A stretch of DNA of 64,000 nt from NCBI GenBank assembly GCA_014802325.1, contig JAAVCK010000005.1, forward strand, positions 62,001 through 126,000, read 5' to 3'. The translations under genes were made by a program, and so were the position numbers. The notes below the pieces were generated by a model, which was given only the letters and a program-made list of their open reading frames with translations, searched no databases and had not been told where the DNA came from. Positions 26,141 through 45,937 of this stretch are shown here, piece after piece. Positions within the stretch are counted from its first letter, which is position 1, and each line of letters opens with the position of its first letter. This stretch comes from Bacteroides sp. GTDB lineage: Bacteria; Bacteroidota; Bacteroidia; Bacteroidales; Muribaculaceae.

Positions 26141-27241
26141 TTAAAGCGAACCGGATATTATATTGATCACCGCATCGAGTCCGTCGGTGGCTATCACATT
26201 ATCGATAGGGCTGTCGATAACCTCGGTCTGCGGCCATGCGGCTACCTCGCTCCACGACTCATGAGCCGGAGCAAAAAGCAGCAGACGGCGCGACGACGGT
26301 GAAAGAGCATCCCATCGGGCACGCAGCGCGCCAATATCGCCGGCCACTCCTGCGGGATAGTTGGCCTCGGCGGCACGAAGCCCCAGCGGATGAGTCTCTG
26401 AATCAGTGATAAGCACCACCACATGACGCTGCACATTGCCACTTGTGGTCCACGGTGTATCGAGCGCCACCGACAGTGCCTCCAGACTATTCTCGGGGTC
26501 ATCGCCGCCGTGCGTAAGCGTCAGTCCGTCAATAAATGCAGCCATTTCCCTGCGACGGGCCGGAAGATCATACAGCTCAGACTCCACGATACGGCTGTCG
26601 ACGAAATCGCCATACGATATTACTTTCATCCTCACCTTGCGCAGCGGTTTGCCGATAGCCCGACAGCGATCCATCAGGGCGTCATACACAGTCAGAGCAC
26701 GTCGCTTCACAGCTTCATGCACCACGTCCATCGACCCGGTATTGTCGATCACCATCACTATATCCACATCGCGCGCTGTAGTGTCGGCTCGCAACGTCAG
26801 AGTAATCTCGCGGGTGAAGTGAAACAGAGCCGAAGCCGACTCGGTGGAATACGGATAAAGTTCGCCCGTGGCCGCAACCTCGGTGAGCGGAGCGAAGATA
26901 TATGAGAATACACTGCATGGCAAGGACTTATAAAGCGCCCTGCCCACGCTGTCGGTACGGGCTTCGCCATACTGCGGGAGCACGGGGAGAAAACCGTCGC
27001 GCCACAGATAGCGGGCATCGTAGGCCAAAGTGGTGTTGACGCCCTCCAGCGGATCGCCGTGCTCATCCACACACACCACGGTGATGTCTCTCTCGCATCG
27101 GATGAGCAGCAGGAGAGGCAGGAGCAACAACAGAAGCCACCACCGGCGACTCCGCGGACGCAGACGCACTTCATACAGATCACAGTCGGAACTGAACGTG
27201 ATCTTTTCCTCAAACTTTACCTGTCGGGGCTTACTTGCCAT
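26141..27241 (-). CDS. membrane-tethered von Willebrand A protein (last gene of the SrfB/SrfC-like operon)
   Basis: A 366-residue protein with a basic cytoplasmic N-terminus, one hydrophobic segment (about residues 34-50, WWLLLLLLPLLLLI) and a large C-terminal part presumably in the periplasm. Residues 55-150 look like a beta-sandwich of the transthyretin/carboxypeptidase-regulatory kind (VVCVDEHGDPLEGVNTTLAY). From about 158 a vWA domain begins, with the MIDAS metal site IDNTGSMD (Asp166, Thr168, Ser170) and the later GGDDPENSLEAL loop. vWA domains bind partner proteins in a metal-dependent way. The start follows the beta-sandwich gene's stop by 2 bp, so it is firmly part of the operon. It may be the adaptor of the periplasmic side. 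Confidence 0.85.
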   Translation of the reverse strand: MASKPRQVKFEEKITFSSDCDLYEVRLRPRSRRWWLLLLLLPLLLLIRCERDITVVCVDEHGDPLEGVNTTLAYDARYLWRDGFLPVLPQYGEARTDSVGRALYKSLPCSVFSYIFAPLTEVAATGELYPYSTESASALFHFTREITLTLRADTTARDVDIVMVIDNTGSMDVVHEAVKRRALTVYDALMDRCRAIGKPLRKVRMKVISYGDFVDSRIVESELYDLPARRREMAAFIDGLTLTHGGDDPENSLEALSVALDTPWTTSGNVQRHVVVLITDSETHPLGLRAAEANYPAGVAGDIGALRARWDALSPSSRRLLLFAPAHESWSEVAAWPQTEVIDSPIDNVIATDGLDAVINIISGSL

Positions 27242-27243
27242 AC

Positions 27244-28422
27244 TTAGCTGTTTTTTCGGCCTTTTCTGCGGTCGGCCCGCGCTTTCTGATATTCGGCCGT
27301 GAGTACGAATCTCACATTCGATTTCTTTCTGTCGACAAATGTGTCGCGCGGAAACAGGGCTACTCCGTCGGCATCGCTGATGGCTGACAGCGTCACTCCT
27401 CCGGGCTGATCTACAAAAACTTCCACCCCGTCGAGCGGCAAACCGTCCTCATCGAGTATTCTCACTCTCACTTTGCGCGGCTCAGGTTCAGGCTTTATCT
27501 CCTCGGGCAGATTCGCGGTATAGACAAACTCATTTGGCGAGTCGGGCGAAAGCATATATTCCGCATCATCGCCCTTGTCCGAGGTGACTTTCACACGGTC
27601 AGCCGACTTGTAGCTCAAGCCGGTTACGCTTACCTTACCGGTATCGTCGGTAGTGAATTGAAGTCCGTTGACATTCAGTTCGTATCCTGCCACCGGCTGC
27701 GAATTGCGATCCACAACCGCAATAGTACAGTCCACGGTCTTTACGAGTTCGATGCGGTAAAGCTCCCTGCCTGTCTCGGCTGTAAACGCGCCCAATAATC
27801 CGCCCTCGTTGTCCCTCACTTCAAAATTAATACCTGTCTTCACCTTTCCCACATGATAGCGCCCGGCCTGATCGGTGAGAAATTTTGTCACGTTATTAAA
27901 TATCACCAGTTGCATGGGGGTGTCGGCAAGCGGTGCACCGTAGTCATAAGCCACCTCCACCGTCACATCGGCAGTGGAAAGCGGCCGGGGCTGCGCGAGC
28001 AGAAATTCTATCACATCCACATCGCCCGGATCGGTAGTGCGCTTGAATCCCCACTGCGCGAGCACCACCCTCACCTCACCGTTATCGGAGCGATACCAGA
28101 AGATATTGTTTTCGTCGGGCACTCTGAACAAATATGGCGCGCCGGTGATATGTCCGGCTATCGCGGGAAGAAGACGCGCCTTGGCATTCTCGATATAGGC
28201 AGCTATCATTTCCTTTTCCACCGGCGAGGCGGCCTGATAGCGGCTCAGTGCCACGGGAGAGTCAGACAGCCACTTGCCGCGGTTGGGGAGCACGTCGACC
28301 GCGGAGAATATCTCACAGTCGGCCTGATTGAGCAGCAGAGCCAGACGGCTGCGCACACGTTTGTAATCATCGGTCAGCAGAGGCTCGATTATTGAGAAAG
28401 ATTCTTCAGAGAGGAGTTGCAT
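27244..28422 (-). CDS. multi-beta-sandwich protein of the SrfB/SrfC-like operon
   Basis: A 392-residue protein without a signal peptide or membrane segment. The N-terminal 140 residues are helical (SEESFSIIEPLLTDDYKRVRSRLALLLN). After that come at least three repeats with the cadence of Ig-like or CarboxypepD_reg sandwiches: VTVEVAYDYGAPLADTPM (about residue 150), CTIAVVDRNSQPVAGYELNV (about 230) and VRVRILDEDGLPLDGVEVFV (about 320). Each repeat ends in a DxxG turn (TDQAGRY, TDDTGKV, SDADGVA). The tail is strongly basic (KARADRRKGRKNS). I do not recognise a named family. The repeats resemble the sandwich in the adjacent vWA protein, and they may stack or compete. It is placed in the operon by a 34-bp gap on one side and 2 bp on the other. 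Confidence 0.75.
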   Translation of the reverse strand: MQLLSEESFSIIEPLLTDDYKRVRSRLALLLNQADCEIFSAVDVLPNRGKWLSDSPVALSRYQAASPVEKEMIAAYIENAKARLLPAIAGHITGAPYLFRVPDENNIFWYRSDNGEVRVVLAQWGFKRTTDPGDVDVIEFLLAQPRPLSTADVTVEVAYDYGAPLADTPMQLVIFNNVTKFLTDQAGRYHVGKVKTGINFEVRDNEGGLLGAFTAETGRELYRIELVKTVDCTIAVVDRNSQPVAGYELNVNGLQFTTDDTGKVSVTGLSYKSADRVKVTSDKGDDAEYMLSPDSPNEFVYTANLPEEIKPEPEPRKVRVRILDEDGLPLDGVEVFVDQPGGVTLSAISDADGVALFPRDTFVDRKKSNVRFVLTAEYQKARADRRKGRKNS

Positions 28423-28456
28423 GACGGGGATATTTTGTGAATGGTGATTATGAACT

Positions 28457-29650
28457 TTAGAATTGGCTGCGGATAGAGTCGACTATGCGAGTGAGTTCTT
28501 CGCCGCGCACCACGAGCTTGCCGGAGTCGCGCAACTGTCTTACGATATCGGCCTTTGCTTTTATCATGAGCGGATATGACTCGGGTATGTCGCTCACGGT
28601 GGCCATGATGGTGTTAAACTCTGGCACATCGGTACCGTTCTTAAACATCCAGCCCATACTATGATCCTTGATACGGGCAAGCGCGCCGGTGAGCTGACGG
28701 TAATAAAGCGCTCCGCTTTCGAGCTGACCTATCACGGTCTTCACCGTCGATACATGCTCTTTATTGTCGAGTCCGTGGGCATAAAAATAGTTTTTCAGCT
28801 CGTCGGCCACGGCATTTACAGCCTTCGCATCATAGCGTGAGGCCATGACCTTGCGGGCGCGGGCTAAAAGGGCGGAATATTCGGCCAGCACGGCAATATG
28901 ATTCACGGCCAGTTCGGCTTCGGCCATCTGCTGAGGATGTCCGTAGTTTGCGAGAATACTGCGGTTATCGTCGAGCAGTCCGGTTGCCTGACGGAGCAGA
29001 GGGGTGAAGTCGGCGTCGATATCCATACGCAGCGCCTCGGTCTCCATTGTATTGAGCTGATCCACCACCGTGGCGGCATGAGAGCGTCGGGCCGAGGCCG
29101 CGTCCATGATACGGGTGGCATGCTCGTTGCGCCGGGTCAGTCCGGCCGCTTCGGCACGCATATCTTCCATACCGCTGCTCAGCGCCTCGCGCTCGGAAGC
29201 ATATGCTGATATAAGCGAGTCGGTCAGCGCTTTCTTCTTGTTGATGGCTATCAGCACAGCCTGAAGCGAATCGCGGGTTACAGCCAGACGATTCTCCTCA
29301 GCTTCGCCACGCGAAGCTGTGCCTTCTATGCGGCTGTCGAGTGCGGTAAGCGTATTGCGCGTGGTGCGCAGCAGTGCCTTGAGCGTACGCACCGAGTCGG
29401 CAGCCTCGGTCGCTGTGGCCGATGTATAGGCAGTGGCCACGGCGGGCGATTCAAGATACTCGTTGATGCAGTTTTTGATAAGAATCATGCGCACCTCGGC
29501 ATCGTCCTTTTTCTTTGTGACTTTTGCGGCCACGCTGTTAATATCTTTGACCGACGGAGAGATAAGTTGCACCGATGTCTGCGCGACGATCTCAGGCGCA
29601 CCCGTAAGGAGTATGAGCGCTGCGGCCATGGTATGCTTTAACGTTTTCAT
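28457..29650 (-). CDS. exported coiled-coil protein A of the SrfB/SrfC-like operon
   Basis: A 397-residue protein with a signal peptide (MKTLKHTMAAALILLTGAPEIVAQ) and an almost entirely helical mature part rich in Ala, Glu, Arg and Leu. It includes heptad-like stretches (residues 85-190, for example LKALLRTTRNTLTALDSRIEG and LQAVLIAINKKKALTDSLIS). A C-terminal helical region (about 310-397) contains DVPEFNTIMATVSDIPESYPL. No catalytic motif is seen. It has the same length and layout as the gene just upstream (29647) and overlaps it by 4 bp, so the two probably arose by duplication and could form a heteromeric periplasmic rod. Confidence 0.8.
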   Translation of the reverse strand: MKTLKHTMAAALILLTGAPEIVAQTSVQLISPSVKDINSVAAKVTKKKDDAEVRMILIKNCINEYLESPAVATAYTSATATEAADSVRTLKALLRTTRNTLTALDSRIEGTASRGEAEENRLAVTRDSLQAVLIAINKKKALTDSLISAYASEREALSSGMEDMRAEAAGLTRRNEHATRIMDAASARRSHAATVVDQLNTMETEALRMDIDADFTPLLRQATGLLDDNRSILANYGHPQQMAEAELAVNHIAVLAEYSALLARARKVMASRYDAKAVNAVADELKNYFYAHGLDNKEHVSTVKTVIGQLESGALYYRQLTGALARIKDHSMGWMFKNGTDVPEFNTIMATVSDIPESYPLMIKAKADIVRQLRDSGKLVVRGEELTRIVDSIRSQF

Positions 29651-30840
29651 TTCTTGATTTGGGCGTTTATGCTGTCAAAAAATTCGGCGGCTTCATCGTC
29701 GGTCATGCCTGCATGGAAATTACGCGATATGAAGTCGAGCGCCCGGTTGAAGTTCACATAATAGTCGGAATACCGAGTAGCACCGGGCGAATACACACCC
29801 ACTACGGTGGCGATAAACTCATCGGTTCTGAAACCGGCCGGCGCTTCCTTGACCATGCCGTTTAACTGGCCGATCATGAAGTTAAGATTGCGCCATGCGC
29901 GCTCATAATCGGCAGCGGCGGCAGCCACCTCATCTATCTCAGCCAAGTGGGGCTTAAGCATCCTGCTCTTGGCGGCAGACGCCTTTACACTCGCCATTTC
30001 GGCTGCTATGCGCTTTGCACCGCCGTCGTCATACTTAGCGGCCATGCACGCCTCGGCATCCTTCACAGCAGCGGAGGCAGGAACCACGTCGCGCTCATAG
30101 AGGGCTACGCTGTCAGCTACCGACTTTACCTCGGCCGGACGGGTGGCGGCTATTCGTGTGGCGGCGCGGGCAAATTTCCCAGCCGCGGCGGTAAATACAC
30201 CCTCGTCCCATGCAGCCAGACCGTCAGTCACAGCCATAGCCGAACGTATCTCTTCAAGCACAATCTCATCTTCGACCGTCTTACGCACATCATCATTCTG
30301 CTCGCGGCGCTGATTTTCGGCTTGCAGGACACTTACATGAGCTCGCATACTGTCTGTAAGCGCGCGAGCGGTGACAAGCGACGCACTGTCGGCGCGGGCC
30401 GTGGCGAGGGCTATATCGAGTTCGGCACGAGCCTTCTCGATACGTGATTTCAGGTGAGCTATATCATTGTGCATCTGAGTAGTCGCGGGGTCAGCGGCAG
30501 CAGTATCGGTCAATGCTCCGAGAGCCGCCTCCCTCTCCTCCAGGACCTTGCGCATACGGCTGAGCGAGTCGGCAAGCATGTCGCGCTCCGACAGAGCTGA
30601 AAGTATCTTCTTCACATCGCCATCCTTCACGCGGGCAGTGCGAAACAGTTCGGTAAACGCCTCTATCACAGAGTGCTCGCGCACGATACGGGTGTCGGCA
30701 TCGGCTATCGAAGCCGTCTTCTCGCGGGCTATATCGCGTGCAAGTTTTTCGTCGACGCGGTAATATCCCGTAGGATCTGCACTCAATACGGATAGCGGCG
30801 TCAGAGCAGCTATTGCTATCAGTAGTCTCTTCATAATCAA
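29647..30840 (-). CDS. exported coiled-coil protein B of the SrfB/SrfC-like operon
   Basis: A 397-residue partner of the downstream gene: a signal peptide (start MIMKRLLIAIAALTPLSVLSA), a long helical section (residues 30-200, with LSERDMLADSLSRMRKVLEEREAALG) and a C-terminal helical domain (about 305-397) with the motif order of its neighbour (tyrosine-rich helix, then FRTDEFIATVVGVY, then a final amphipathic helix). Sequence identity to protein A is low by eye, so paralogy rests on equal length, architecture and adjacency. It overlaps both neighbours by 4 bp, implying coupled translation and fixed stoichiometry. Confidence 0.8.
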   Translation of the reverse strand: MIMKRLLIAIAALTPLSVLSADPTGYYRVDEKLARDIAREKTASIADADTRIVREHSVIEAFTELFRTARVKDGDVKKILSALSERDMLADSLSRMRKVLEEREAALGALTDTAAADPATTQMHNDIAHLKSRIEKARAELDIALATARADSASLVTARALTDSMRAHVSVLQAENQRREQNDDVRKTVEDEIVLEEIRSAMAVTDGLAAWDEGVFTAAAGKFARAATRIAATRPAEVKSVADSVALYERDVVPASAAVKDAEACMAAKYDDGGAKRIAAEMASVKASAAKSRMLKPHLAEIDEVAAAAADYERAWRNLNFMIGQLNGMVKEAPAGFRTDEFIATVVGVYSPGATRYSDYYVNFNRALDFISRNFHAGMTDDEAAEFFDSINAQIKK

Positions 30841-31610
30841 TGCTGATGAGTCTCTTTATATTTTGAAATCAATGCGCCGGCTTCGGCGGGTACATCGTCA
30901 ACAGCCGAGAGGATGAGAATGTTTACCGCACGCTCGTCGGCCTGCGTCCAGGGTTCGGAGCGACGGCTGTAGAGACGCGCCACATTGAGCGCGTATTCCA
31001 GACGTCGCTTTCTGAAGGCCGCCTTCACGCCCTCCCGGCTGAAAGCACGTTGCAGATAAGTGCACGCGGGATGAGCCGCGCGGTGAGCATCGATGGCCGA
31101 ATTGATATTCTTCTCGTGACGTACATCGTATTCATCGCGCCACGACGTGACTTTCTGGCGCGCGCCTATGCTTGCAGCGAAATTCATCTCGGCCTGATGA
31201 CGGTCATATCGGCTCAGCACCTCTGCGGCATCCTCAGCCATATTAAACGACCGCAACTCGCGTGCAGCCGACTCAAGCCGTGAGTGCGAGCGCTCGCAGT
31301 TGTCGCTGAGCGCAGCCTTCATATCGGCGGCTATGGCGCGGGAATAATACATGGCCAACTTTGACCGCAGCCCTTCACGCTGAGCCTTGGTGAGCACCTT
31401 CGAGCCAAGTATCTGCTCGTTGAGTATCTCATCGTAGGCAGCGCGGCTCCACGGTTTCGACGGAAGTTCGTCGATATTGGCGCTTATCGAGGCCTGCGTC
31501 TCCGACACCACCGGTCCTTTCATGCCATCTTTCTCGCCGGGCCGACGGTGGGAACAGGCCGTCAACAGCAGCCCCGCGATTATCAGACTATATATCGGCT
31601 TCATTTTCAC
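30837..31610 (-). CDS. lipoprotein of the SrfB/SrfC-like operon
   Basis: A 257-residue protein with a lipoprotein signal peptide (MKMKPIYSLIIAGLLLTACS; Cys19 in LLTAC). The mature part is helical, rich in Arg, Ala and Glu, without beta strands or catalytic motifs (LGSKVLTKAQREGLRSKLAMYY and LESAARELRSFNMAEDAAEVL). It resembles the helical parts of the two coiled-coil proteins encoded next and may anchor them to a membrane. The start codon shares one base with the stop of the 1002-residue gene, so translation is coupled. No known family recognised. Confidence 0.8.
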   Translation of the reverse strand: MKMKPIYSLIIAGLLLTACSHRRPGEKDGMKGPVVSETQASISANIDELPSKPWSRAAYDEILNEQILGSKVLTKAQREGLRSKLAMYYSRAIAADMKAALSDNCERSHSRLESAARELRSFNMAEDAAEVLSRYDRHQAEMNFAASIGARQKVTSWRDEYDVRHEKNINSAIDAHRAAHPACTYLQRAFSREGVKAAFRKRRLEYALNVARLYSRRSEPWTQADERAVNILILSAVDDVPAEAGALISKYKETHQH

Positions 31611-34600
31611 TATTTTTTAATACCCATCTCCTTCAGCTTGCCGGCTGCATAGTTGAAGTCTCGTTTGGGATCATTTTTCTTATGAATTTGCCAGTAATTG
31701 TCATAATATGCGGCGGCAGCTTTCTGTTCGGGGGTGAACAAATTCTTATGTAAGCAAGGCGATTCCTTCGGGTCAAAAAACTTCTTATAAGCACTCACCT
31801 TTGCAGCATAGACGGCGATTTCCTTGTCTATCACATTTTTATGTTCAGCCTGATAGTCTTCGATCTTATTCACATCGGCCATCGAGCAGTCCATGCGCTT
31901 GAGGCGGTCTATCAGTTTACGGTAAGGGGCGGCCACAGCTTCATATGTAGAATCGGCCTCGGCTTTACGCCTGGCCTCATCGAGCTTGGCTTGCTCCGCA
32001 CGGTCCAAGATAAGCTGCAACGAATCGACGTAGCGTGAATCGGCATAGCGGCTCACAAATTCCGCTTTGGTCTCGTCAGTCACAGGTGAGCGGCGGCCGG
32101 TGAGTTCGGCATAAAAGCGTGCGGCCGGTGTAGCCGGAAGAGTGACTGCGCGATCAAGATCCATAGGCTTTTCGGAAACCAGGAAGTTCTTGAGATCCGA
32201 CAGCGTGTCGGCTTTTATCACTTCGTCAAGACATAAGGTATCTATACCTTCATTACCGTAATTTACCACTATACGCTCCTTGCCTGTGACGGCAGCCACG
32301 GGTCCGGTGCGCAAGAAGAGCAGCGTGCGGCCCGACGAAGTCATTATCCTGTCGAGCGAGTCGAGAGCGGTCACCGAAGCCACTGTATCAGGTGCACCTG
32401 CGGTGAGATCTACGCTAAATGCATATTCCTTGCCGCCCTTGGTGAAAAGAAGCCACCCGGATACTCCGAATAAAATTGCCAGTAGCACGCCATATATCAC
32501 CATACCTGTCTTGCTGAGCAGAGCCTCGAAGATACGGCTTACCAGCGACGGGATGTAGGTGATGACATAGCGGTTTCTACCCACGTGTTTCATAGTGAAC
32601 TCTCCGCGGGTCTGAGCCTTATCGGCGGGCTTGAACTGCTCCACCGGATTGTCCTTGCTCGTCTTTATGACCACATTCTCGCCCTTCGAGAGGGTGTATT
32701 CCTTATCGTCGGCAATCTGCTTGCCGTTGATATAAAACTTGTCGCAGTTGACAAACTGCACCGTCACATCGTCGGGCGACTTCGTGCCGCCGGCCCGGCG
32801 GTCATCGACAGTGGCAGCGGCCGGCATAATCGTATAGAGGCGGAGTGCCGGAAGATTATCACACAGCAACTTATACACGTCGCCGTCAGGCTGATTGGCA
32901 AACACCACATCGGCCACACTACCCACAGCCACAAGAGCGCCCGGCATCACTTTCTTAAGATTTCCACCTATCTTCACCTGCACGGCATGCGGCGAACGAT
33001 TGGAAACTACAGTGCCTGTCAACGTAAGGCATCCGTCGGGCATCAGCACCATAGGCACGAGCACATCGCCCGTGGCGGTCTTGCAGCATAGCTCTATCGA
33101 ACCTTTCGATGCTCCGAAAGGCAATTTCACCACACCCGAACGTATCTCATAGTCCTTACCTTCATATCTCACCGCCACACGTGCATCGGTAGTCACACGG
33201 TTGAAAGCCGGCTGAATCATGACGCCGACCTGCTCAGAGAGCGGTGTGAATACATACACGCCGTCGACGGGCTTCACCTTGAAATCATCGGCACGCAGCG
33301 CCATCTTTGCCGTTGGAGGCACCATGAGCGGCTGACCTTCCACCACCCGCGTTTCGAGGGTCACGTTATCGGCATAGATCTCGGCCTCGATTTCGGGCGA
33401 CGCACCTTTAGGCAGCTGAATGCGGGGAATGAGAGCAACCGCTTTGACTTCGAGCGGCCGCTGAGCCTCGATATATTCGATGGGGCGGCACTTTCCTACC
33501 GGGAATTTGGCATTGGAAAAGCGGTTGGGAAACAGTCCCACCACATACTCGGCCGTCACCTTCGGACCGTCGAGAGGAAAAACCCATCCGCCATCCATCT
33601 GCACGGCATCCACCACACCCTCGGTCTTACTTGAGAGGCGCAGGCAGGGCGCCACAAGCGAGGTATCGCAGTCTTTCCCCTGCACCCACATGTAATATCT
33701 CACGGGTTTCATGCGGGGTGTGACCATGCGGTAGTCTACGCCCTGACGATTGAGAAATCCGCTTTTCACGAGTTCATCCACCGTGCCCGAAATCTGTCCG
33801 TCGTGGAAGTAGCGCCGGCGGAGAGCTATGTCAAGGCGGTCGTCATGTCTGAGTCCTACATCGTCGATGCGGCCTGTATAATCTATGCCATTGACTTTGA
33901 GCGACAATATTTCCACTCCTTCGTCGGCAAATGGAAACAATCGGTTCATGGGCACAGACTCCGACACTTTCTCTATAATCTCCGGCTCGCGGTTAAATGT
34001 AATATCGAAGGCGGCGCGGTTATCCACCAGGTCGCGACGGAAAAACATCACCTCCTGACAGTCAAAAAATTCCTTGTGATAAGGATTGTCGAAATAGCGA
34101 TCGACTATGGCCGGGTCGTCATATTTCACCACCTTGGGAATATTGTTCTGCACCGAGGGGCTGTAGCGGAGCATGCGGCGGTCAGGCACCACGCGGGCCA
34201 GAGTGTCGAGCATGTTCTGAAACGGGCGTATCTCGTCGAATTTACCGGGAAGCGGCGTGCCGTTGAGCGGATTGACGTACTCGCGGAAATATCGGTTGAG
34301 CATCTCGTCGAGCACCTCGCGCACATTAGTTATCATGAGCGAATGAGGCACAAACAGAGTGATGGCTATGAAAGCGCCTGCACCCGAGTCATTGCTGGAG
34401 CGATAGTGTGTATAGACCTTGTAGGCCGCGGTAAATTCCACGGCGTAATAGTCCACTCCGTGGCGGCGGACGGCTACAAACGAGCGTATATCCTTGAGCG
34501 TGTCGCTAATATCTTTCTCGTTGACGTCTACCACATTGGAGCAGAAAATACGGTAGCCGCCCTTGCAGCCCCATATCACGAGTCCTATATCTTTTATATA

Positions 34601-34618: not shown

Positions 34619-34624
34619 TCTTAA

Positions 34625-36160: not shown

Positions 36161-36202
36161 GACTGTATTGATTCTATGATATTAGATTTGAGATATAGGC
36201 CA

Positions 36203-37072: not shown

Positions 37073-37099
37073 CTTGGTTTGTTATGGAGTTTCTGAGTG

Positions 37100-37107: not shown

Positions 37108-37122
37108 CTCTGAAAGTTTAGA

Positions 37123-39711
37123 CTAACGTATACGCACAAGGTTAAATCTTATTTTTCGATATTTTTCTTTCTGACTCATGGCCACGCCCACGGCCACACG
37201 GTTGCGGTCGGGCACGAGAGTGAAATCGTAGGGATAATACGCCCCACCCGGGCCGCTGCACCCCTCGGGCTGGTGCATATCTACCTTATCGTCGTGCACG
37301 GCCACGTCAAGCGCTCCGGTATATCGCTTGCCGTCGGGCTCCACGAGTTCGAGCACTCCACGTGGCGAGCCGTCGAATGTGAAGTAGAGCACCACATCCT
37401 CGCGGTCGTTGTTGACAAGCGGCGTAGTGCTTTTCCACGTGCCGCGCAGATCGGCCACAGTGGCGCCCTCGGGTATCTCAAGAGTGTCGACCGACTCTAT
37501 ACAGCCGGGATAATCGCGGCGCAGGCGCTCTATCTCGTCGCGGAGTTCGATATAGCGGCGGAGTATGGTCTCGCAGTCGGCCGACGGAGAGTCCTTTTCG
37601 CCCGGCGAGGTCACCGGCCCGCTCACCACGTCGGCTCCGGGCTGCGACGGTGCCGCATCAGGACCTTTCTCCTTTACAAGCTCTGCGGCGCGCCCGAAGT
37701 TGAGTATCGGGCCAATATCGTCGGTCACGGGTATACCTGTCGAGCGCATTATGTCGGCTACCTGAGGTGTGGAGAGCGAGGGCTGCATACTTTTAAGTAG
37801 CGCCACACCTCCGGCCACTATGGGCGAGGCCATCGAGGTGCCTTCGAGATATTCGTATTTTCCGCCGGGCACGGCATTGTATATGTCCACACCGGGAGCG
37901 GATATGGTGGAGCGGCGTCCGTAGTTGGAGAAGGATGCTTTGGATTTATCGGGCGTCACTGCCGACACATTGATTGTATACCCTGAGCGTTGCATGGGGT
38001 CAAGTCCTATTATGAGATTCTGATTACCGCCGGCAAGTACGAAGGTGACTCCTTCACGCTCGGCCATCTCAAATATTTTAGTCCACACATGCTCTTCTTC
38101 GAGAAACTGATTGCGCACTATCTCTTCCTGAAGCGCCGGGGGAGCAAACTGAAGCATGTTGCTGAATTCCATACCGAGCGACATGTTGACCACCTTGGCC
38201 CCGCTCTTTATGGCATAGAGCGCACCGTCGATCACCGCCGACGTGGGCATCAGACCGTTGCGGTCGCCTACCTGTATGAGCACCAGGTCACATCCCGGAG
38301 CAATACCCGACGAGCCTTCGCCGTTGTCGGCCGCCCCGGCAGCCGTGGCTGCCACGTGCATTCCGTGGCCTCCGGGTTGGGGAAATATATCGCGGTTATG
38401 ATATACGGCATTGTATACATCGGCCACCTTACCCTTTATCTCGGGATGGTCGAGGTCAAACCCGTCGTCGATCACGGCGATCCTGATATTCTTGTCGCCT
38501 CGGGTCACATCCCACGCATCATACACCTCCGTCATATCGAAATACCAGCGCTTGCGCGGATCAGAAAAAGCCGGGTCGGAGGGTACGGCCGACGTGCCGA
38601 AAAGAGTCTCGGGTAGCACCAATAGCTCCCACGACGGAAACTCTGAGGGCAACCGGTCTATCATATCCTGACGCTCTTCGGCCGGGAGTATCAGCACCAG
38701 ACGCGGTATCAGCGTGTCGGGATTGGCAAACTGATAGCGATTTTTGTCGGGATACCTGGAGCGGAACTCGCGCACGAATTCATTGACCGAGCCGCCTTCG
38801 GTGATCACGAGTATCAGACGGTTGGCCACCACGCGGGTCATGGAGTCGGGACTTTCCACCACATCGCGTGCCGGATCTATATCGGGCGGGAGCGCTACTA
38901 TTTCATGGTCGAAAGGTTCGCCCCCCTCTTCGGAGCAACTATTGAGCAACTTGCACAGCAGCCATATGAGCAGAACTGCGGCCAGGGCAATCAATATCCA
39001 TTTCAGCCAATTTCTGCGCTTGCGGTTTGCGCCTTGCGGAGCCGCCGGCGGAATTAAGGGAGGTACCGGAGGCGCAGGCGGAGTGACCGGAGGCTCTGCG
39101 GGCGGAGTTACGGGCGGTACTGCCGCAGAGTCTCGTGTATCTTTATGAGTCGCTGACTCAGGGGAAAGCGCCGGCTCTGCGGTCGACTCCGGATCATCAT
39201 GCTTCACCGCATCAGCAGGACGGCCCACCACCTTCTCCGGCTCCACATCCACGCCTAAAGGCATGCGGCTGTAGTCGCTGACATTGCGCGGGTGCATACC
39301 CCACTCGGTGATAACCACCTTTCCGTCGCCGCAATATACGGTGTCGGGCGAGTGATAGGTCACTGCTTCGGCAAGCACTTCGCGGGTCTCGTCATCGGCA
39401 CTGTCAACGGCATGTCCGAGCCTGGTCATCGTATCGGCAAGAATGCTTTCGTAGCGCTCACGCTCGTCGCCCACGAGCTGAGCGAGCGGTCGGGCCGGGC
39501 TGCTGAACTGATCCGTGCCCCATATTATCTGCTCTTTACCCGGCTGACCGGTGACCTGCGGCATGGCAAGCACGTGAGTGCAGGCCGCGTCGAGCCCCTT
39601 CAGGCGGTGAGCTATGAGCGAACTCACGCGGCTGTGCTGCATCACTACCGGCTGCTGGCCTGCATAGTGGTGCGTGAACGCGTTATAATCGCTTTGATTG
39701 AGATACTGCAT
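37123..39711 (-). CDS. membrane-anchored subtilisin (S8) protease of the SrfB/SrfC-like operon
   Basis: An 862-residue protein with an unusual layout. Residues 1-190 form a soluble, presumably cytoplasmic domain (MQYLNQSDYNAFTHHYAG start, HVLAMPQVTGQPGKEQIIWG), then comes a Pro-rich linker and one membrane helix (about 235-257, WLKWILIALAAVLLIWLLC). The periplasmic part has an inhibitor-like prodomain and a complete S8 catalytic triad: Asp415 in VIDDGFD, His449 in GHGMHVAA and Ser626 in GTSMASP, with the oxyanion asparagine in AGGNQN. A C-terminal coiled segment and beta domain follow. The cytoplasmic domain could take input from the SrfB/SrfC-like NTPases encoded just upstream (6-bp gap). 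Confidence 0.88.
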   Translation of the reverse strand: MQYLNQSDYNAFTHHYAGQQPVVMQHSRVSSLIAHRLKGLDAACTHVLAMPQVTGQPGKEQIIWGTDQFSSPARPLAQLVGDERERYESILADTMTRLGHAVDSADDETREVLAEAVTYHSPDTVYCGDGKVVITEWGMHPRNVSDYSRMPLGVDVEPEKVVGRPADAVKHDDPESTAEPALSPESATHKDTRDSAAVPPVTPPAEPPVTPPAPPVPPLIPPAAPQGANRKRRNWLKWILIALAAVLLIWLLCKLLNSCSEEGGEPFDHEIVALPPDIDPARDVVESPDSMTRVVANRLILVITEGGSVNEFVREFRSRYPDKNRYQFANPDTLIPRLVLILPAEERQDMIDRLPSEFPSWELLVLPETLFGTSAVPSDPAFSDPRKRWYFDMTEVYDAWDVTRGDKNIRIAVIDDGFDLDHPEIKGKVADVYNAVYHNRDIFPQPGGHGMHVAATAAGAADNGEGSSGIAPGCDLVLIQVGDRNGLMPTSAVIDGALYAIKSGAKVVNMSLGMEFSNMLQFAPPALQEEIVRNQFLEEEHVWTKIFEMAEREGVTFVLAGGNQNLIIGLDPMQRSGYTINVSAVTPDKSKASFSNYGRRSTISAPGVDIYNAVPGGKYEYLEGTSMASPIVAGGVALLKSMQPSLSTPQVADIMRSTGIPVTDDIGPILNFGRAAELVKEKGPDAAPSQPGADVVSGPVTSPGEKDSPSADCETILRRYIELRDEIERLRRDYPGCIESVDTLEIPEGATVADLRGTWKSTTPLVNNDREDVVLYFTFDGSPRGVLELVEPDGKRYTGALDVAVHDDKVDMHQPEGCSGPGGAYYPYDFTLVPDRNRVAVGVAMSQKEKYRKIRFNLVRIR

Positions 39712-39717
39712 GCTACA

Positions 39718-42700
39718 TCAGATTTCAGGAGACAGAGTGGAGAGTGAGTCAAGACCGTGATCGGGTCGAAGCAGCGGCTTTATGTCGGGCTGGTCTACGA
39801 TAAACTTCGTCAGCACCCGGCGCAACTCATTATTCATCGCCACGTCGTACTTAGGTATTCCGCATGTGGCAAGGAAAGCTATCTTCATCATATCGGTCCA
39901 CTCGCGAAATGAATGGTAGGCGCTGAAATATGACAGTTTTTCAGTGTCGACGGGTACGTTGTTGAGCAGTGAGTCCACATTGTCAAACACATCGAACACA
40001 TCGCCGAGTCCGGCACGCACTTTCTCGCCGTCAAATTCCACATCGTCCTTATATCCTGCCCCCACATTGACGTCAAAACCGTTGTGACTCACGGTGTCGC
40101 GCACGTCGGCCCAAAGCTCTTCCTCGAAGTAAGCCGTGCCTATGGTGTTGATAAATTTATTGAGCATCTCGGCGCATATATCGGCCAGCATCTCGGTCAT
40201 ATCGTCGAGATTTTCGCGAGCGGTGACGTATGGAGCCAGTCGCGCAGTGATGCGCTCGGTCATCTTCAGTTTGTCGGTATAGAGCACACGTATGTTAGCG
40301 AGCAACGTGTCAAGCGCCTTCTCGTTCATGCCGCGGTCTATAAATTCACGGAAATGATCGACCGTAAGATAGGTCTCCATCCAATATTTCTCAACGGCGT
40401 CGACTATAATGCGGGCCAGATTGCGCACCGCCGGAGGATTGATTATATCCTTCATGGTGAGCTTCATGTCGGTCAGATAGGCATCGAGTTCGTCGTCAGA
40501 TGCGAAGTGGTATGTCTCACGCATGCGGCGGCGGTTTTCTGCCTCGTTAGCTGCCGCATCGACGGGCACTTTGTTGCCACGCTCATCGGTGATATACGGC
40601 GGTATGATACCGGCACGGTTGCGTATGGCGAAGAGTGTTGACAGGTCGGTATCCTCAAGCACCTTTACTGAATTTACGGTAGTGAGGATAGTATCGTTGA
40701 TCTCGTCCTCGTGCACCAGGAGCGAGTTGATGAAATCGGAGAAGAAATATTTGTCTTTGCCGAACAGGGCGTCAAACACCAGTTCGATGCGTCCGGCACC
40801 TTCGAGAGCCCGGCGAAGTTCGTCGTCGGAGTTATCGTCGTGGAAATGCTTCTTGAGAGCAGCACACAGAGCACCGATGGCCTGGTCAGAGATCCGGGCG
40901 AAAGTGCGCTCACGCGATGCGCTCATCTTGCGACCCGAACGGGTGAGATTGTCAATGATCCACTTGGAGCCGTCCTTGCCGGGCGATACGGCCTCGTCCC
41001 ACGAGTGACCGGGGTCAGCGAAGTGTGTGCGGATATAGTCGTTGGATACGAATGTATCGCGCAGACGGTCAAAAAACTCGCGGTAATCTTCGCTCACACA
41101 TATCTCACCCTGGAGTTTTCCGTCGGGTGTGCGTGTCAGCAGCCAGTCGCCGTTGGCGTCTTTGGTCATATATCCGTCATACAGGCCGTCGAGACAGGAG
41201 TACTCAAACGAGCGCAGCATGTAGAAGTTTTTAAATGCCTGACCGGGAGTCCACTCGTTTTCCCACGGATTCTTTATCGATGCCGACATCACGTTTGACA
41301 GTATGCCGAATCGCTTGGTCCAGCGGTTGCGCTTCTCCTGCTCGCGCTGCTCCGCACTGCCCTTGGAGTCAACATCGCGACGCTTGAGTTCGATATTGAA
41401 CTTGGTGCCGATGATGAAGAGCGGCGATACTTCGGCTGTGGCCAGAAAGTCAGCACGTTCGGCGGGTGTCTTGCCTACGGTCTTCTCCACCCAGCTGGTG
41501 AGCAACGTGGGGAGAGTGTTCACCTCATTCTGCGTATCGTCGTGGCAGAAAAGGAGGTTGGTGATCAGATACTGCTGCGAATATTTATTGAACAGATACG
41601 CCACCTTGCCGCGGATAAGCATGAGCGAGGCATCGCGGCGCGTAATGTCGGCCTCGGAGTTTTTCTGACGCGAGCGCGCCCCGGGAAAGTCGAGTATATC
41701 GAGGTCTTTCAGAAACGGTTTCTCGGCATATAGCCGTTCCGTCTGGGCCGGATTTGTGGGATCGGTGATAGTGAAGTCCACCTCCATAGCCAGAGCGCAG
41801 AACACGGCCTTCTCAATATCCGTCACTTCGCGGCCACCGTCGGTCATCACATCCATCAGAGGCTCGGTGGCCTTTTCTATCATCACTTTTCCGCCCTTTT
41901 CATCGTCGAGTTCGTCGATGCCGAACAGCTCGTAGATGCGGTCGACATGGAGTATCGTGCCGGTGAATTTATTCACCGCCGCGAGTTTGATATAGACGGT
42001 GCGACTGAAATCGAGGCGCTGCAGCGTGGCCACGAGCTTATTGAATACCTCGGTGATAATCGGATTGCGGTTCCAGAGATATGAGAACACATCGGCCCAG
42101 CAGTCTACCGGAACGGATTGTATCACCTCGGCCAACGTCTCAAAATAGTTCTGCCTGATAAGCGCATCCTGAAAGTCGGGGCGCTGCTCCATGAGTCCGA
42201 GAGTGAAATACTCGCGCAACTCATATATATCGTCCTCGGTCACAATGGTCTGCATCGTAGGGCGGTCACCGTAAGTGTGGAGCAGACGTCTGACCTCGGC
42301 GGCTATCTCCTCCTCGCGGGGCACGTTGTGGTCCTTCACGTCGTTGAAATACGTGTCGGCCAATACGAGCACCACGTCGACCGCCGACAGCATCACTGCC
42401 TTGACCGGATAGCGGGGATCTTTCCACACCTGCCGGGTGGTGAAGCGTGATATGAGCGATGTGGCTTCCTTACCGTTGCCCGTGGGATTGATATATTCGA
42501 TAAATCCTGTGGGAGTGCCCTCAGCATCGTAGATGGTGAGGGGATTGGTATCCGACGTGAGCAGACAGTCCACCATGTACGACTTGCCCACCTGCGACTT
42601 GCCGAAGATGGCAGCGGCCGGATTGACCGACGCGGCGTAGCGTATGCGGCGCAGGTCTATTCGGTTGGTGATAAGATCGCTACGCAGCGAGCGCAGATCG

Positions 42701-42792
42701 CTGCCCTTAAGATATGCTTTACCCCAGTCAAGACCGGCGCTGTTGGCGCTGAGCTGGGCATCGATATATTTGTTTTCCATTATGTCAGTCAT
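39718..42792 (-). CDS. SrfC-like P-loop protein
   Basis: A 1024-residue soluble protein resembling the SrfC family of putative virulence factors. An N-terminal P-loop reads FGKSQVGKS (Gly64-Ser71). The G3-like segment LDILDFPGARSR has Asp368. LFIIGTKFN further on could serve as a nucleotide-base motif. The remaining two thirds are helical, with many charged residues. SrfC proteins are known from Salmonella srfABC and insect pathogens, usually next to SrfB, as here (8-bp overlap with the SrfB-like gene). The biochemistry of the family is poorly defined; a dynamin- or septin-like mechanical role is only a guess. Confidence 0.7.
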   Translation of the reverse strand: MTDIMENKYIDAQLSANSAGLDWGKAYLKGSDLRSLRSDLITNRIDLRRIRYAASVNPAAAIFGKSQVGKSYMVDCLLTSDTNPLTIYDAEGTPTGFIEYINPTGNGKEATSLISRFTTRQVWKDPRYPVKAVMLSAVDVVLVLADTYFNDVKDHNVPREEEIAAEVRRLLHTYGDRPTMQTIVTEDDIYELREYFTLGLMEQRPDFQDALIRQNYFETLAEVIQSVPVDCWADVFSYLWNRNPIITEVFNKLVATLQRLDFSRTVYIKLAAVNKFTGTILHVDRIYELFGIDELDDEKGGKVMIEKATEPLMDVMTDGGREVTDIEKAVFCALAMEVDFTITDPTNPAQTERLYAEKPFLKDLDILDFPGARSRQKNSEADITRRDASLMLIRGKVAYLFNKYSQQYLITNLLFCHDDTQNEVNTLPTLLTSWVEKTVGKTPAERADFLATAEVSPLFIIGTKFNIELKRRDVDSKGSAEQREQEKRNRWTKRFGILSNVMSASIKNPWENEWTPGQAFKNFYMLRSFEYSCLDGLYDGYMTKDANGDWLLTRTPDGKLQGEICVSEDYREFFDRLRDTFVSNDYIRTHFADPGHSWDEAVSPGKDGSKWIIDNLTRSGRKMSASRERTFARISDQAIGALCAALKKHFHDDNSDDELRRALEGAGRIELVFDALFGKDKYFFSDFINSLLVHEDEINDTILTTVNSVKVLEDTDLSTLFAIRNRAGIIPPYITDERGNKVPVDAAANEAENRRRMRETYHFASDDELDAYLTDMKLTMKDIINPPAVRNLARIIVDAVEKYWMETYLTVDHFREFIDRGMNEKALDTLLANIRVLYTDKLKMTERITARLAPYVTARENLDDMTEMLADICAEMLNKFINTIGTAYFEEELWADVRDTVSHNGFDVNVGAGYKDDVEFDGEKVRAGLGDVFDVFDNVDSLLNNVPVDTEKLSYFSAYHSFREWTDMMKIAFLATCGIPKYDVAMNNELRRVLTKFIVDQPDIKPLLRPDHGLDSLSTLSPEI

Positions 42793-45700
42793 TTATCTGG
42801 GTGATGAATTTGCCCGAGTCGAGCCAGTTGTTTTCGTCCTCGGCCCAAGTCTGGAGTCGGAGCACAAACATCTTGTTGGAAATCTCGTCGCGCTGCGAGT
42901 TGGAGATACTGTCGATTATCACTTCCTCCTTGTCGGTATTATACTCGCGCTCGATGGCAAATGTGAGCGGAGTGTTGCGCTTGGTGCGGAACTTGATGGT
43001 GTCCATCTCGGAGTTGATATAGTCGGGCGATATGTCACTCTCGCCGGCCGTAGGAGGCAGTCCGAGCTGAGTGCGGAGATTTTCTATGGCCTTGGCGCGG
43101 ATATACTTGTCGTTGAAGTCGAGTACGTAGAGCTGCTGCGACGGATATCCGCCGATATTTATCTGCTTGGCACCGATACGGATAGGGAAGCCGGATATTT
43201 CTATCGTGCCACGGCGCTCCGTGGGTGTGAGCAGCGGCGTCAGTGCGCCCGACATGGTGTTGAGTATCCCGATATAATCGGTGGTGGGCAGAATCTTCGT
43301 CTTGAGATTCTCGGTATTGAGGCGAAAGTCGTTGAGTTTGCCCGTCTCGGCCAGATATGATATCAGGGCGCCTACGGCCACCATAGATTTCTTGTCGCCG
43401 AAGTGACCTATGTCGGTCGAGCCGGGATACCATGAGCCTACACGGTAGTCGTTCATTGATATGAGTCGGTTGGGCTTCACGGCGTCGAGGCGGCGCAGCA
43501 GTCGGTGGACCTGATGGAGCGAACACGGACGTCCGGCCATGAGTACAATATCGCAGTTGTAGCGGTAGAATATCGCCGCCCACTTGCGCATGGATGGCTC
43601 AAATACCTTGCACACGATTTCATTCATGAAGTCGCGCGAATACTTTACGGGCATCTCCTCGAAGCGGAATCCCATCTGCGAGGCAAAGAAGTCGAGCAGC
43701 GCTTTCGAGGGACGGTTGACGGGAAAAATCTCGTCAAAGGTCAGTTGGCGGTCGGGGCTGTCGTGCTGAAGCAGATCGAGCAGATAATTGGCTACCGGTA
43801 TGAGCACCTGTATGTTAAACTCCTTGCGCATGCGTTTTTCCTTGACACCCATAGCCTGAGTGTCGCCAAAGAAGTGGGCTTTCACATTGGGCACGTCGCG
43901 GCATCCTATGGCACGGAGGCGCGCGGTGATGAGACCCGACGCACCCGGATAGCGCTCCTGGGGATCATTGAGCAGCACGTCGATAATTACCCGTTTGGTC
44001 AGTTCGTCGCCTGCTATATGGAATGTCTCCCAGAAGAGCGGTGTGGGTATGATGGTCTCGCCGCTATTACGGTAATTGCATATCATGATGTCGGTAGTGC
44101 CTGCACCTATGTCGATCGAGCCTACGGTGAGCGAGCAGTCCTTCTCGCCGTTACGGCGCTTGCCGTAGAGGTCGAAAAACTCGCGCGAATTGCCCAGATA
44201 GCGACGCATCTCGCTGTAGAGATATACCATCTGGCAGCATGTGGCCTCGTCGTAGATCCAGTTGCGGCGCATGTCGTAGTTGTCGGCGCTCTTGGCCAGA
44301 TCTTTTACCGAGGGGATGATTTCTATCTTGTCGCGGTCGGCCTCCGGATCGTATTTCTCGCTGTAAGTGCCGGCATAGTAGCGCGAGAGCACTATCGATG
44401 CCTCCTCCATGCAGCGGCGCAATACGAGCTGCTCCCGGCGGCTCATAGCCGTAGGACAGGTCAGTATCACGCGGCTTATGCGGCGCTTGCGCGACTCGTT
44501 GCCGTTGCGCTCGCGGAATTTCACACTGTTGATCTGCATTCTTACCTGAAGCAGTATTTCGAGGAAGCAGAATGTCATGAGCGACCGGCGCGAGTAGCTG
44601 CTGCGTACGCCGAAGTTCATCGGATCGTCCACAAACGAGCCATCGGTAGCGAACTGCTCGTCAAGCCCTTCGATGCTCACTTTCATGGCCGGGCCTATGT
44701 AGCGGTCGCGCTCCGACACGAATTTCCATTCGCCGGCAAACGGTTCGTCGTCCCACAGATAGCGCTTCGGACTGGAATAGTTGGTCTCGAATTCCTCGTT
44801 GCTGAGCAGGTCGCTGTCGCCGCCGTATATGTTGCGGAGCGCTTCCGAACCTAACCTCACGTAGCTGGGCCAGCGAAACTGACGGTCGCCGGTGGAAAGG
44901 CCGAAGAGTTCGCGACGGAAACACAGACGCATGTCAAACGGCTTGTCGTAGACCTCACCGGTCGACAGGTCACGAAGTTCAACAGGAGCGGCTTTTGAGA
45001 ACGATGCGTTGATAGGATCCTCGGCTATGAGGCCGAATGTACGCGAATTGCCCACATCGAGCACCAGATTGGTATTGATCACAGCCTGACCGGCATCATT
45101 ATAGAGCCGCACTTCGGGGAATATGTGCTTACGCTGAAGATAAGTGATGAGATATGCGTAATAAGCAAGATACTTCACACGGCTGCGCACATCTTCCTGC
45201 TTGCCGTAGGGGTCAGAGTGGAGCAGAGTGCGCAGATAGCCGTCGAGTTCGGGATTACGCTTCATGTCGACAAACTCATAGGCGCGCAGTGGCACTACCA
45301 TACTGTCAAGGCGGTTGCGCTCGCTATCGGTCATAGTGTCATAGTCGGCCATCGAGATACCGCACAGAGCATAATCTTTGAATGGCTGACCGCTGCTGAA
45401 GTGGGGACTTACACGCTCGTTGCTGAGATTACGGTCAGTGTCAAACGCCATGACCAGACGGTAGACACGCTTGTGATGAGTGGACTTGCCGGCTACGGGC
45501 ACGAGTTTCACTCTACACCAGTTGAGCGGATATGAGAGCGCCGCGTCGCGATCCTTTTCATAAAACGGTACGGGCAACCACTGATTCTCTATCTGATCAA
45601 GACCTGACAGGCGGAGATCGCCCACGGTGGTGTCAAGACTGCTGATCGAAAGGAGGTCATCGTTCTCAAGCCAGTTCACGTGATTGTTGATCACTTCCTC

Positions 45701-45937
45701 GGGCGCAAGCTCGTTGGTGCGCGCGTCAAGATAGCCTGACAGAAGCAGATCGTTGCGGCGGAGAAACTTATCTTTCATCGGAAAGTAATACACCGGATCC
45801 ATGTACACGACGTCCTTAAACTGATATACGTAGTAGCGCAGTGCTTTCATCACGTTTTCGCTCAGGTCTATCGTCACCTCTTGCTCCGGCTCATAAAACT
45901 GTATTCCGGTATTGAGAATCAATGAAAAGTCACTCAT
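42785..45937 (-). CDS. SrfB-like actin/HSP70-fold ATPase (first gene of the operon)
   Basis: A 1050-residue protein whose central part carries the three nucleotide-binding signatures of the actin/HSP70/hexokinase fold: phosphate-1 LVLDVGNSRTFG (Asp294), phosphate-2 SIDIGAGTTDIM (Asp609) and an adenosine-motif-like IVLMAGRPCS (around 800). Order and spacing fit SrfB, the large ASKHA-fold partner of SrfC. Residues 1-285 and the large insert between 300 and 600 have no recognisable domain. A promoter element at 46056 and a structured leader precede it. It is translationally coupled to the SrfC-like gene (8-bp overlap). ATP-dependent conformational switching is inferred from the fold. Confidence 0.75.
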   Translation of the reverse strand: MSDFSLILNTGIQFYEPEQEVTIDLSENVMKALRYYVYQFKDVVYMDPVYYFPMKDKFLRRNDLLLSGYLDARTNELAPEEVINNHVNWLENDDLLSISSLDTTVGDLRLSGLDQIENQWLPVPFYEKDRDAALSYPLNWCRVKLVPVAGKSTHHKRVYRLVMAFDTDRNLSNERVSPHFSSGQPFKDYALCGISMADYDTMTDSERNRLDSMVVPLRAYEFVDMKRNPELDGYLRTLLHSDPYGKQEDVRSRVKYLAYYAYLITYLQRKHIFPEVRLYNDAGQAVINTNLVLDVGNSRTFGLIAEDPINASFSKAAPVELRDLSTGEVYDKPFDMRLCFRRELFGLSTGDRQFRWPSYVRLGSEALRNIYGGDSDLLSNEEFETNYSSPKRYLWDDEPFAGEWKFVSERDRYIGPAMKVSIEGLDEQFATDGSFVDDPMNFGVRSSYSRRSLMTFCFLEILLQVRMQINSVKFRERNGNESRKRRISRVILTCPTAMSRREQLVLRRCMEEASIVLSRYYAGTYSEKYDPEADRDKIEIIPSVKDLAKSADNYDMRRNWIYDEATCCQMVYLYSEMRRYLGNSREFFDLYGKRRNGEKDCSLTVGSIDIGAGTTDIMICNYRNSGETIIPTPLFWETFHIAGDELTKRVIIDVLLNDPQERYPGASGLITARLRAIGCRDVPNVKAHFFGDTQAMGVKEKRMRKEFNIQVLIPVANYLLDLLQHDSPDRQLTFDEIFPVNRPSKALLDFFASQMGFRFEEMPVKYSRDFMNEIVCKVFEPSMRKWAAIFYRYNCDIVLMAGRPCSLHQVHRLLRRLDAVKPNRLISMNDYRVGSWYPGSTDIGHFGDKKSMVAVGALISYLAETGKLNDFRLNTENLKTKILPTTDYIGILNTMSGALTPLLTPTERRGTIEISGFPIRIGAKQINIGGYPSQQLYVLDFNDKYIRAKAIENLRTQLGLPPTAGESDISPDYINSEMDTIKFRTKRNTPLTFAIEREYNTDKEEVIIDSISNSQRDEISNKMFVLRLQTWAEDENNWLDSGKFITQIND

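Follow-up and report, generated by a model that had tools for sequence, protein, structure and literature searches.

The SrfA, SrfB and SrfC proteins of Salmonella, Xenorhabdus and Deltaproteobacteria are encoded by adjacent genes in one operon. SrfABC is annotated as a virulence factor although its function is unclear (PMC3608642). In Xenorhabdus, the three proteins form a heteromeric complex in lysates and are cytotoxic to cultured cells (PMC6950479). An srf-tag gene neighbourhood was reported in 2013 (PMC3608642), control genes of the type VI secretion system (T6SS) were noted near srfABC (PMC6950479), and TagQRST is described as sensing attack by T6SS and the type IV secretion system, polymyxin and EDTA (PMC11323562). 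A role in membrane stress has been predicted for DO-GTPases (PMC11237479), and 38% of DO-GTPase systems contain two GTPase copies (PMC7159879). Here, a stretch of 64,000 nucleotides of a Bacteroides sp. genome of the family Muribaculaceae (hereafter the window; contig JAAVCK010000005.1) was found to carry, at positions 26141-45937, an eleven-gene operon that, judged from its sequence, is a Bacteroidota form of SrfABC joined to a GTPase membrane module. SrfABC itself is known; the protease-bearing SrfA, the GTPase module and the Bacteroidota form appear to be new.

The operon consists of eleven consecutive open reading frames (ORFs) on the minus strand, transcribed in the order K to A:

42785..45937, minus strand: SrfB (K), first gene, 1050 amino acids
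39718..42792, minus strand: SrfC (J; Virul_Fac), 1024 amino acids
37123..39711, minus strand: SrfA-S8 (I; membrane subtilase), 862 amino acids
36203..37072, minus strand: H, four-helix membrane protein, 289 amino acids
34625..36160, minus strand: G, DO-GTPase-like GTPase, 511 amino acids
31610..34618, minus strand: F, single-pass protein, 1002 amino acids
30837..31610, minus strand: E, lipoprotein, 257 amino acids
29647..30840, minus strand: D, secreted coiled-coil protein, 397 amino acids
28457..29650, minus strand: C, secreted coiled-coil protein, 397 amino acids
27244..28422, minus strand: B, CarboxypepD_reg Ig-like protein, 392 amino acids
26141..27241, minus strand: A, von Willebrand factor A (vWA) protein, 366 amino acids

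Neighbouring genes are separated by gaps of 2, 34, 6, 42, 50 and 6 bp or overlap by 4, 4, 1 and 8 bp. For D (TTG) and E (GTG), an ATG comes immediately after the start codon, which may therefore have been placed a few codons upstream of the true one. The genome contains a single SrfB copy.

The first two genes were assigned with Pfam to the families SrfB (PF07520, E 1.1e-159, 533.9 bits against a cut-off of 27.1) and SrfC (PF10139, E 1.3e-99, 335.1 bits against 28.1). An alignment of 13 SrfB sequences from Bacteroidota and Proteobacteria sensu lato showed invariant residues at D294-G296-N297-S298-T300, D609-G611-G613-T614-D616 and G802/P804, which were likewise invariant in 17 Bacteroidota SrfB and which we take to be actin/HSP70 motifs; by sequence, SrfB thus carries the motifs of an actin/HSP70-type ATPase. 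SrfC retained G64-x-S-Q-x-G69-K70-S71 and D368-F-P-G371 in all 13 sequences from Bacteroidota and Proteobacteria, and is predicted to be a P-loop protein, probably a GTPase. Neither protein has a signal peptide by eye. No solved structure related to SrfB was found by sequence at E 10. A weak match of SrfC to guanylate-binding protein structures (0.02) was rejected as noise because a nanobody scored better (0.014).

The third gene product is, from its sequence, an SrfA protein with an S8 protease inserted between the membrane helix and the C-terminal domain. Its predicted arrangement comprises a cytoplasmic SrfA N-terminal part, a transmembrane (TM) helix at about residues 238-253, a periplasmic S8 domain at 407-658 and the SrfA C-terminal domain at 737-831; the S8 domain is placed in the periplasm because an Arg/Lys-rich stretch precedes the helix and an acidic stretch follows it. 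A custom profile built from nine proteobacterial SrfA proteins matched colinearly at residues 4-183, 194-263 (the membrane helix) and 737-831 (whole-protein E 4.9e-17). Since these matches flank the S8 domain, the protease sits inside SrfA, where it replaces model positions of about 222-337. The same profile gave a much stronger result for the homolog in genome G052 (E 3.9e-44; 6-168, 244-276 and 722-840, the last piece at 2.7e-21), a weaker one for the congener G002 (E 1.6e-5), and in G028 and G080, which belong to a second clade, it was significant in the C-terminal part only. The NCBIfam model for the SrfA family (NF040486) matched residues 44-258 of the window protein at E 3.8e-7; its score of 29.9 bits is far under the cut-off of 150, so this model would not name the protein SrfA, and its detection of 5 of the 20 members of the Bacteroidota S8 alignment places the relation at the edge of the model. 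In family-model scans of two proteobacterial loci (L090 and L092), no S8 model matched SrfA, and the full-length SrfA proteins of the proteobacterial loci compared here span 435 to 524 amino acids. With the third protein identified as an SrfA carrying an S8 insert, the core of the operon corresponds to the known SrfABC triad. The catalytic residues D415, H449, N563 and S626 were kept in 28 of 28 S8-bearing homologs, a count that leaves out the alignment row G052_29432, which is not an S8 protein. Many solved subtilisins are related to the S8 domain. A second Srf-type S8 protein of 837 amino acids was observed in the same operon in G128 (L069), and in G096 (L059) the S8 protein and H occur in one 1177-amino-acid frame at a contig end.

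These results confirm what the original prediction had observed in the sequence, with more order than it had stated, and its interpretation as a whole is partly supported. The eleven minus-strand genes at 26141-45937, separated by no more than 50 bp or overlapping by 1-8 bp, agree exactly with the ORF reading; the SrfB- and SrfC-type assignments gave strong profile matches, and the S8 and vWA assignments were recovered as Peptidase_S8 (E 4.2e-44) and VWA_2 (E 3.6e-6). What it had called a membrane subtilisin does combine an S8 domain with a membrane part; its SrfA identity had been missed. The proposed topology of cytoplasmic NTPases (NTP, nucleoside triphosphate), membrane couplers and a periplasmic protease is consistent with the sequence features described here.

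SrfB, SrfC and the Srf-type S8 protein (counted at E 1e-100 or better, a threshold chosen in this analysis) were each found in 35 of the 297 family genomes, and all three in the same ones. SrfB occurred in 5 of 61 relatives and in 2 of 395 genomes across the phylum, the window's own genome being included in both counts. Gene neighbourhoods were read at 27 loci, some of them cut by contig ends: the window, 23 others of the family (together 24 of the 35 SrfB genomes, with 11 unread) and three more distant ones. The order SrfB-SrfC-S8 was kept in 27/27 loci, which argues against a chance grouping, and the three genes were directly adjacent in 26/27, an extra ORF lying between them in G052. The core thus co-occurs well beyond this strain, as the original prediction expected. 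H follows as a separate gene in 23/27 loci (in G096 it lies within the S8 frame), a P-loop GTPase is present in 24/27, and a related single-TM protein stands at the place of F in 21/27, as judged by profile comparison for two of three groups. Correlations of SrfB distances with those of other genes (0.74 to 0.98) were rejected as evidence of interaction, since vertical inheritance alone suffices to produce them.

Behind the core lies the GTPase membrane module. H shows hydrophobic peaks at residues 19, 44, 76 and 259, with a similar pattern in relatives, and its loop of about 160 amino acids is probably periplasmic. G is a cytoplasmic protein with N-terminal TPR-like repeats, the motifs GVPRSGKSS and TKSD, and a Walker B glutamate (E323). 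Its sequence suggests a relation to the DO-GTPases: DO-GTPase2 was detected in 4 of 17 aligned G-type proteins (best E 5.6e-8) and DO-GTPase1 in 3 of 17. Comparison of G with solved structures gave weak matches only, to BamD-type repeats and EngB/Der. F has a TM helix at about 707-725 and a weaker hydrophobic peak near 566; its large N-terminal part is probably cytoplasmic and its C-terminal part probably periplasmic. No Pfam family was found for F; its N-terminal region is common to the position-6 protein of other loci (95% and 92% in profile comparison). For F, H and B, the sequence search for relatives of solved structure returned nothing useful. E, a periplasmic lipoprotein, carries a lipobox, LTAC, by eye; profile comparison points to a possible relation with the protein at position 7 of other loci (75% for cluster 7 but just 14% for cluster 5).

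The H profile was found in 37 of the 297 family genomes, namely 33 of the 35 with SrfB (not G177 or G284) and four without it; G146 has an additional H match. The alignment behind the G profile included three non-GTPase rows, for which reason the 66/297 genomes with G-profile matches include many that are repeat-only. Counts for G therefore use matches at E 1e-60 or better. Such matches came from six genomes without SrfB (G107, G147, G223, G236, G241 and G301) and from 33 of the 35 with it, the exceptions being G096, whose locus meets its contig end, and G284, where the repeats alone matched. The G301 locus ends at the contig end after G, and a second stretch of G262, which a contig end cuts within H, may continue the Srf locus of that genome. 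In G147 and G241 (L114 and L115), G-related GTPases (E 1.3e-71 and 1.1e-72) lie without H or Srf genes in the stretch read. G002 (L028) encodes a second GTPase of 374 amino acids, with GVAGTGKS and TKCD, directly behind the vWA gene near the operon end. ORFs at the 3' end of the loci of G312 (two), G168, G190 and G180 were rejected as GTPase copies because they have no P-loop; the N-terminal repeats of G recur in these ORFs (seen in three), those of G190 and G180 and one of G312 have outer-membrane barrel-like ends by eye, and that of G168 is cut by the stretch end. Small zinc-ribbon, one-TM proteins with differing C-terminal parts were seen by eye beside H-G in G107 (L107/L108) and in the tail of G232 (L053). 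Pfam found a double zinc ribbon in one of the array proteins, and the G232 array includes one FGE-like protein by eye.

The last four genes form a variable tail. D and C each have a signal peptide by eye and, among the 27 loci, occur only in the window and G002; both are also found in two sister species, D in truncated form. Profile comparison gave no significant relation of C or D to the coiled-coil proteins that occupy the corresponding position elsewhere. B, present in 13/27 loci, matched CarboxypepD_reg (PF13620, E 3.1e-8; Ig-like), with an N-terminal region outside any family and, in some relatives, a C-terminal TM helix. A, present in 6/27, scored 28 bits for VWA_2 against a cut-off of 27 and has a TM helix at about 34-47 after an Arg-rich stretch; it is membrane-anchored and probably periplasmic. 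Both A and B have Ig-like parts.

The complete cluster recurs in G002 beside a related kinase, on a contig other than that of CinA. Identities between the window and G002 were 80% for SrfB, 77% for SrfC, 64% for the S8 protein, 57% for G, 46% for B, 37-42% for the vWA protein, 37% for E, 33% for H, 32% for F and 26% for D, with 68% for CinA; C gave no blastp match at 1e-5. The envelope parts have changed far more quickly than SrfB and SrfC. Identity likewise drops between SrfB and H or G in eight further close pairs, one of which has no H, with some ties and slight inversions. In the closest sisters, G005 and G018 (CinA 89% identical to that of the window), SrfB, SrfC, H and the Srf-type S8 protein are absent from the genomes. 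A search of the 20 kb surrounding CinA with the eleven proteins recovered only C, D and F, which lie between this gene and the kinase that adjoins SrfB in the window; a scrap of about 30 bp of the end of G also aligns there. F is a 994-amino-acid frame with 57% identity in G005 and begins at residue 220 in G018 (796 amino acids); D is cut to 187 amino acids in both sisters, and C has 399 in G005 and 314 in G018. The simplest account is that the core was lost and the remainder then decayed, the reverse order being another possibility.

A search with the SrfB alignment returned at least 21 loci; the matches listed comprised 5 from Bacteroidota, 15 from Proteobacteria sensu lato (two of them Desulfovibrio) and 1 from Phycisphaerae. 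Like the described SrfABC operons, the window locus has adjacent SrfA, SrfB and SrfC homologs. It differs by the S8 protease in the periplasmic middle of SrfA, by the gene order B-C-A instead of A-B-C, and by the GTPase module that follows, whereas TagQRST-like genes or none adjoin the proteobacterial operons. In Pseudomonas defluvii (L090), the genes beside SrfABC encode a single-TM protein, a vWA protein (4.6e-5), a LolD/FtsE-type ATPase, an FtsX-like permease (1.6e-10), an FGE protein (3.9e-29) and one that matches TagQ weakly (9.5e-7, 28.4 of 300 bits), by sequence a TagQRST-like set. ORFs of similar size and helix pattern were present in L078, L083 and L084 and in part in L079, L091 and L092; among the L092 ORFs that were profiled is an ABC ATPase. 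Five enteric loci (L081, L082, L085, L086 and L088) have SrfABC without such a gene run behind it, as judged by ORF size and strand. TagQRST, the sensor of the T6SS threonine phosphorylation pathway, is an envelope-spanning accessory module beside SrfABC in some Proteobacteria. In the Phycisphaerae locus (L093), distant SrfB and SrfC are accompanied by a 786-amino-acid ORF without a Pfam match and a 1265-amino-acid ORF, among other neighbours.

Tentatively, and with rather more doubt than confidence, we read the operon as an NTP-driven trans-envelope machine that would respond to stress or attack with a periplasmic protease. SrfB and SrfC would bind the cytoplasmic end of SrfA, in keeping with the association of the Xenorhabdus trio in lysates. 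The fast-diverging periplasmic parts (A-E and the loops of H and F) would sense envelope damage or attacker contact, and the signal would be relayed through H and F to the GTPase G, which could license the SrfB-SrfC NTPases. Their cycle might then move SrfA and so switch or position the periplasmic protease, whose targets would be envelope proteins, whether invading or damaged, or an anti-factor. This reading draws on the SrfA homology that flanks the S8 domain at either end, the shared 35/297 genomes and the conserved gene order; on the protease residues kept in 28/28 homologs, the invariant SrfB and SrfC motifs and the Xenorhabdus complex; and on the srf-TagQRST link, the membrane-stress prediction for DO-GTPases, the faster divergence of the envelope parts and the loss of the core with partial truncation of the rest. 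A protease in the periplasmic region of SrfA would provide SrfABC with a biochemical activity that can be tested. The partner module differs between groups, being TagQRST-like in some Proteobacteria and GTPase-based in Bacteroidota, which suggests that what the core monitors is the condition of the envelope. On this reading, the srf genes of many commensals would encode an envelope defence or repair machine and not a virulence trait.

Several observations weigh against the envelope-response reading. The vWA protein occurs in 6/27 loci and C and D in 2/27, so these tail parts cannot be essential. Genes of the H-G-single-TM-lipoprotein type occur without adjoining Srf genes in G107, G236 and G223 and at a second locus of G028, which speaks for two modules that have been joined, and the full 994-amino-acid frame of F in the core-less G005 suggests that F may be useful without the core. 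The single-system view of the original prediction calls for refinement on account of these separate occurrences and of the tail parts C, D and A, which few loci carry. Co-occurrence of linked genes is expected from linkage alone. The operon flanks include the housekeeping genes CinA and TsaD. Taken by itself, the C-terminal SrfA piece is weak in the window protein (E 0.001) and non-significant in G002 (1.3). G matched DO-GTPase2 (PF19993) at E 0.0014 with 18.8 bits, under the 27-bit cut-off, and was not listed in the whole-genome DO-GTPase2 profile scan, which extended to E 1. Envelope proteins commonly diverge fast. For the TagQRST parts (FGE, FtsX-like permease, ABC ATPase and TagQ lipoprotein), there was no Pfam match in the eleven proteins and no NCBIfam match in the nine scanned; the proposed sensing role is therefore an analogy. 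We know of no experiment on any Bacteroidota copy.

The best-surviving alternative, which we nevertheless consider unlikely, is a device for envelope biogenesis or quality control, in which the NTPases would drive surface proteins through assembly, extraction or folding, clients would be removed or matured by the subtilase, and attack would not be sensed. HSP70-type motifs, a protease and a lipoprotein would suit this role, and the three-way co-occurrence of SrfB, SrfC and the S8 protein fits an obligate complex. Mycosins act within the envelope complex of the type VII secretion system (T7SS), and the likeness lies in a membrane-tied subtilase in a multi-part envelope complex. The mycosin model (TIGR03921) is the best S8 model in the window protein and matched 20/20 alignment members at E 0.01. 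However, its score in the window protein (111.5 bits) is far below the cut-off of 278.75, the window domain lies inside SrfA, and Pfam detected no T7SS component among the eleven proteins. A quality-control function also fits poorly with the very patchy distribution in the family and the phylum, the absence of the core from the two closest sisters and the variable tail.

Conflict systems built on DO-GTPases and GAP1, reportedly described by Kaur et al. in 2020, provide another alternative. An anti-phage or inter-bacterial conflict system akin to these (PMC7159879), in which SrfB and SrfC would form the NTP switch and the subtilase the effector, seems a doubtful proposition. The likenesses are a probably related GTPase with a Walker B glutamate beside membrane proteins and HSP70-like and vWA genes; HSP70, vWA and TM components match the themes of the GAP1-N2 systems, and the zinc-ribbon-TM arrays of relatives recall the variable parts of DO-GTPase systems, while the window itself has none (PMC7159879). 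G together with the second P-loop/TKCD GTPase of G002 can be compared with the two-copy systems. The PADLOC model named subtilase matched the S8 protein (7.9e-18) and the anti-phage S8 model IteS matched 9 of 20 S8 members, both of which may reflect general S8 likeness. Other PADLOC matches among the eight proteins scanned were weak (PbeC 0.036, mad8 0.027), with none for SrfB or SrfC. The idea of F as GAP1 was dropped, as none of 15 F-type proteins matched GAP1 and GAP1-N2 (PF20013) was absent from the loci of 8/8 genomes, with one match of 0.41 elsewhere. GAP1-N1 gave no match either, having been sought only through the Pfam scan, in which the presence of a GAP1-N1 model is unchecked. As to the GASH or FNIII partners of DO-GTPase/GAP1 systems, Pfam, in which the presence of a GASH model is unchecked, gave no FNIII match in any of the eleven proteins, but A and B have Ig-like parts. 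MoxR-vWA ternary systems share the vWA, but Pfam found no AAA/MoxR match in the operon. The resemblance to NTP-dependent conflict systems noted in the original prediction has some support from the DO-GTPase-like G with the second GTPase copy in G002, the variable arrays of relatives and the fast-diverging envelope parts, but neither GAP1 nor MoxR was found. A literature search judged by titles and the openings of abstracts found no Bacteroidota SrfABC, SrfA-subtilase or srf-DO-GTPase locus, which is weak evidence of absence as subscription journals were thinly covered. It is improbable, in our estimate, that an ATPase-GTPase motor at the cytoplasmic side of the membrane drives the periplasmic subtilisin through SrfA-S8, with the second GTPase gating it in response to fast-diverging surface sensors, as a protease weapon or self-destruct device against envelope attack; to our knowledge, an NTP-controlled extracytoplasmic protease is known nowhere else as a mode of conflict.

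A tripartite cytotoxin, as proposed for Xenorhabdus SrfABC and in line with its reported cytotoxicity to cultured cells, is very improbable here, given that SrfB and SrfC have no signal peptide by eye, that SrfA sits in the membrane and itself carries a protease domain in this operon, and that the relatives listed include Methylococcus and Fluviicola, which are non-pathogens.

Directly upstream of SrfB, positions 46123-48132 encode a sensor kinase with TPR and His_kinase domains (PF06580, E 4e-10). It was rejected as part of the operon because it is retained in the two core-less sisters and other ORFs take this place elsewhere; the kinase adjoins SrfB in the window and in G002, and DNA related to it is present in G002 and in both sisters. 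The Bacteroidetes -7 promoter consensus is TAnnTTTG, and Bacteroidetes-type promoters follow the pattern TTTG-N18..22-TANNTTTG. This pattern was matched five times in the window, against 0.32 expected, and a separate candidate precedes SrfB, with no -33 element at the spacing searched:

46056..46063, minus strand: candidate -7 promoter element TATCTTTG, some 120 bp upstream of the SrfB gene
48217-48247: promoter-pattern match, just upstream of the kinase gene
54054-54085: promoter-pattern match
54644-54674: promoter-pattern match
60672-60702: promoter-pattern match
62797-62828: promoter-pattern match

Elsewhere in the window, positions 15072-18398 encode a 1108-amino-acid protein with Ig-like domains and a Peptidase C25 domain (E 5.1e-58), which we take to be a member of the gingipain family.

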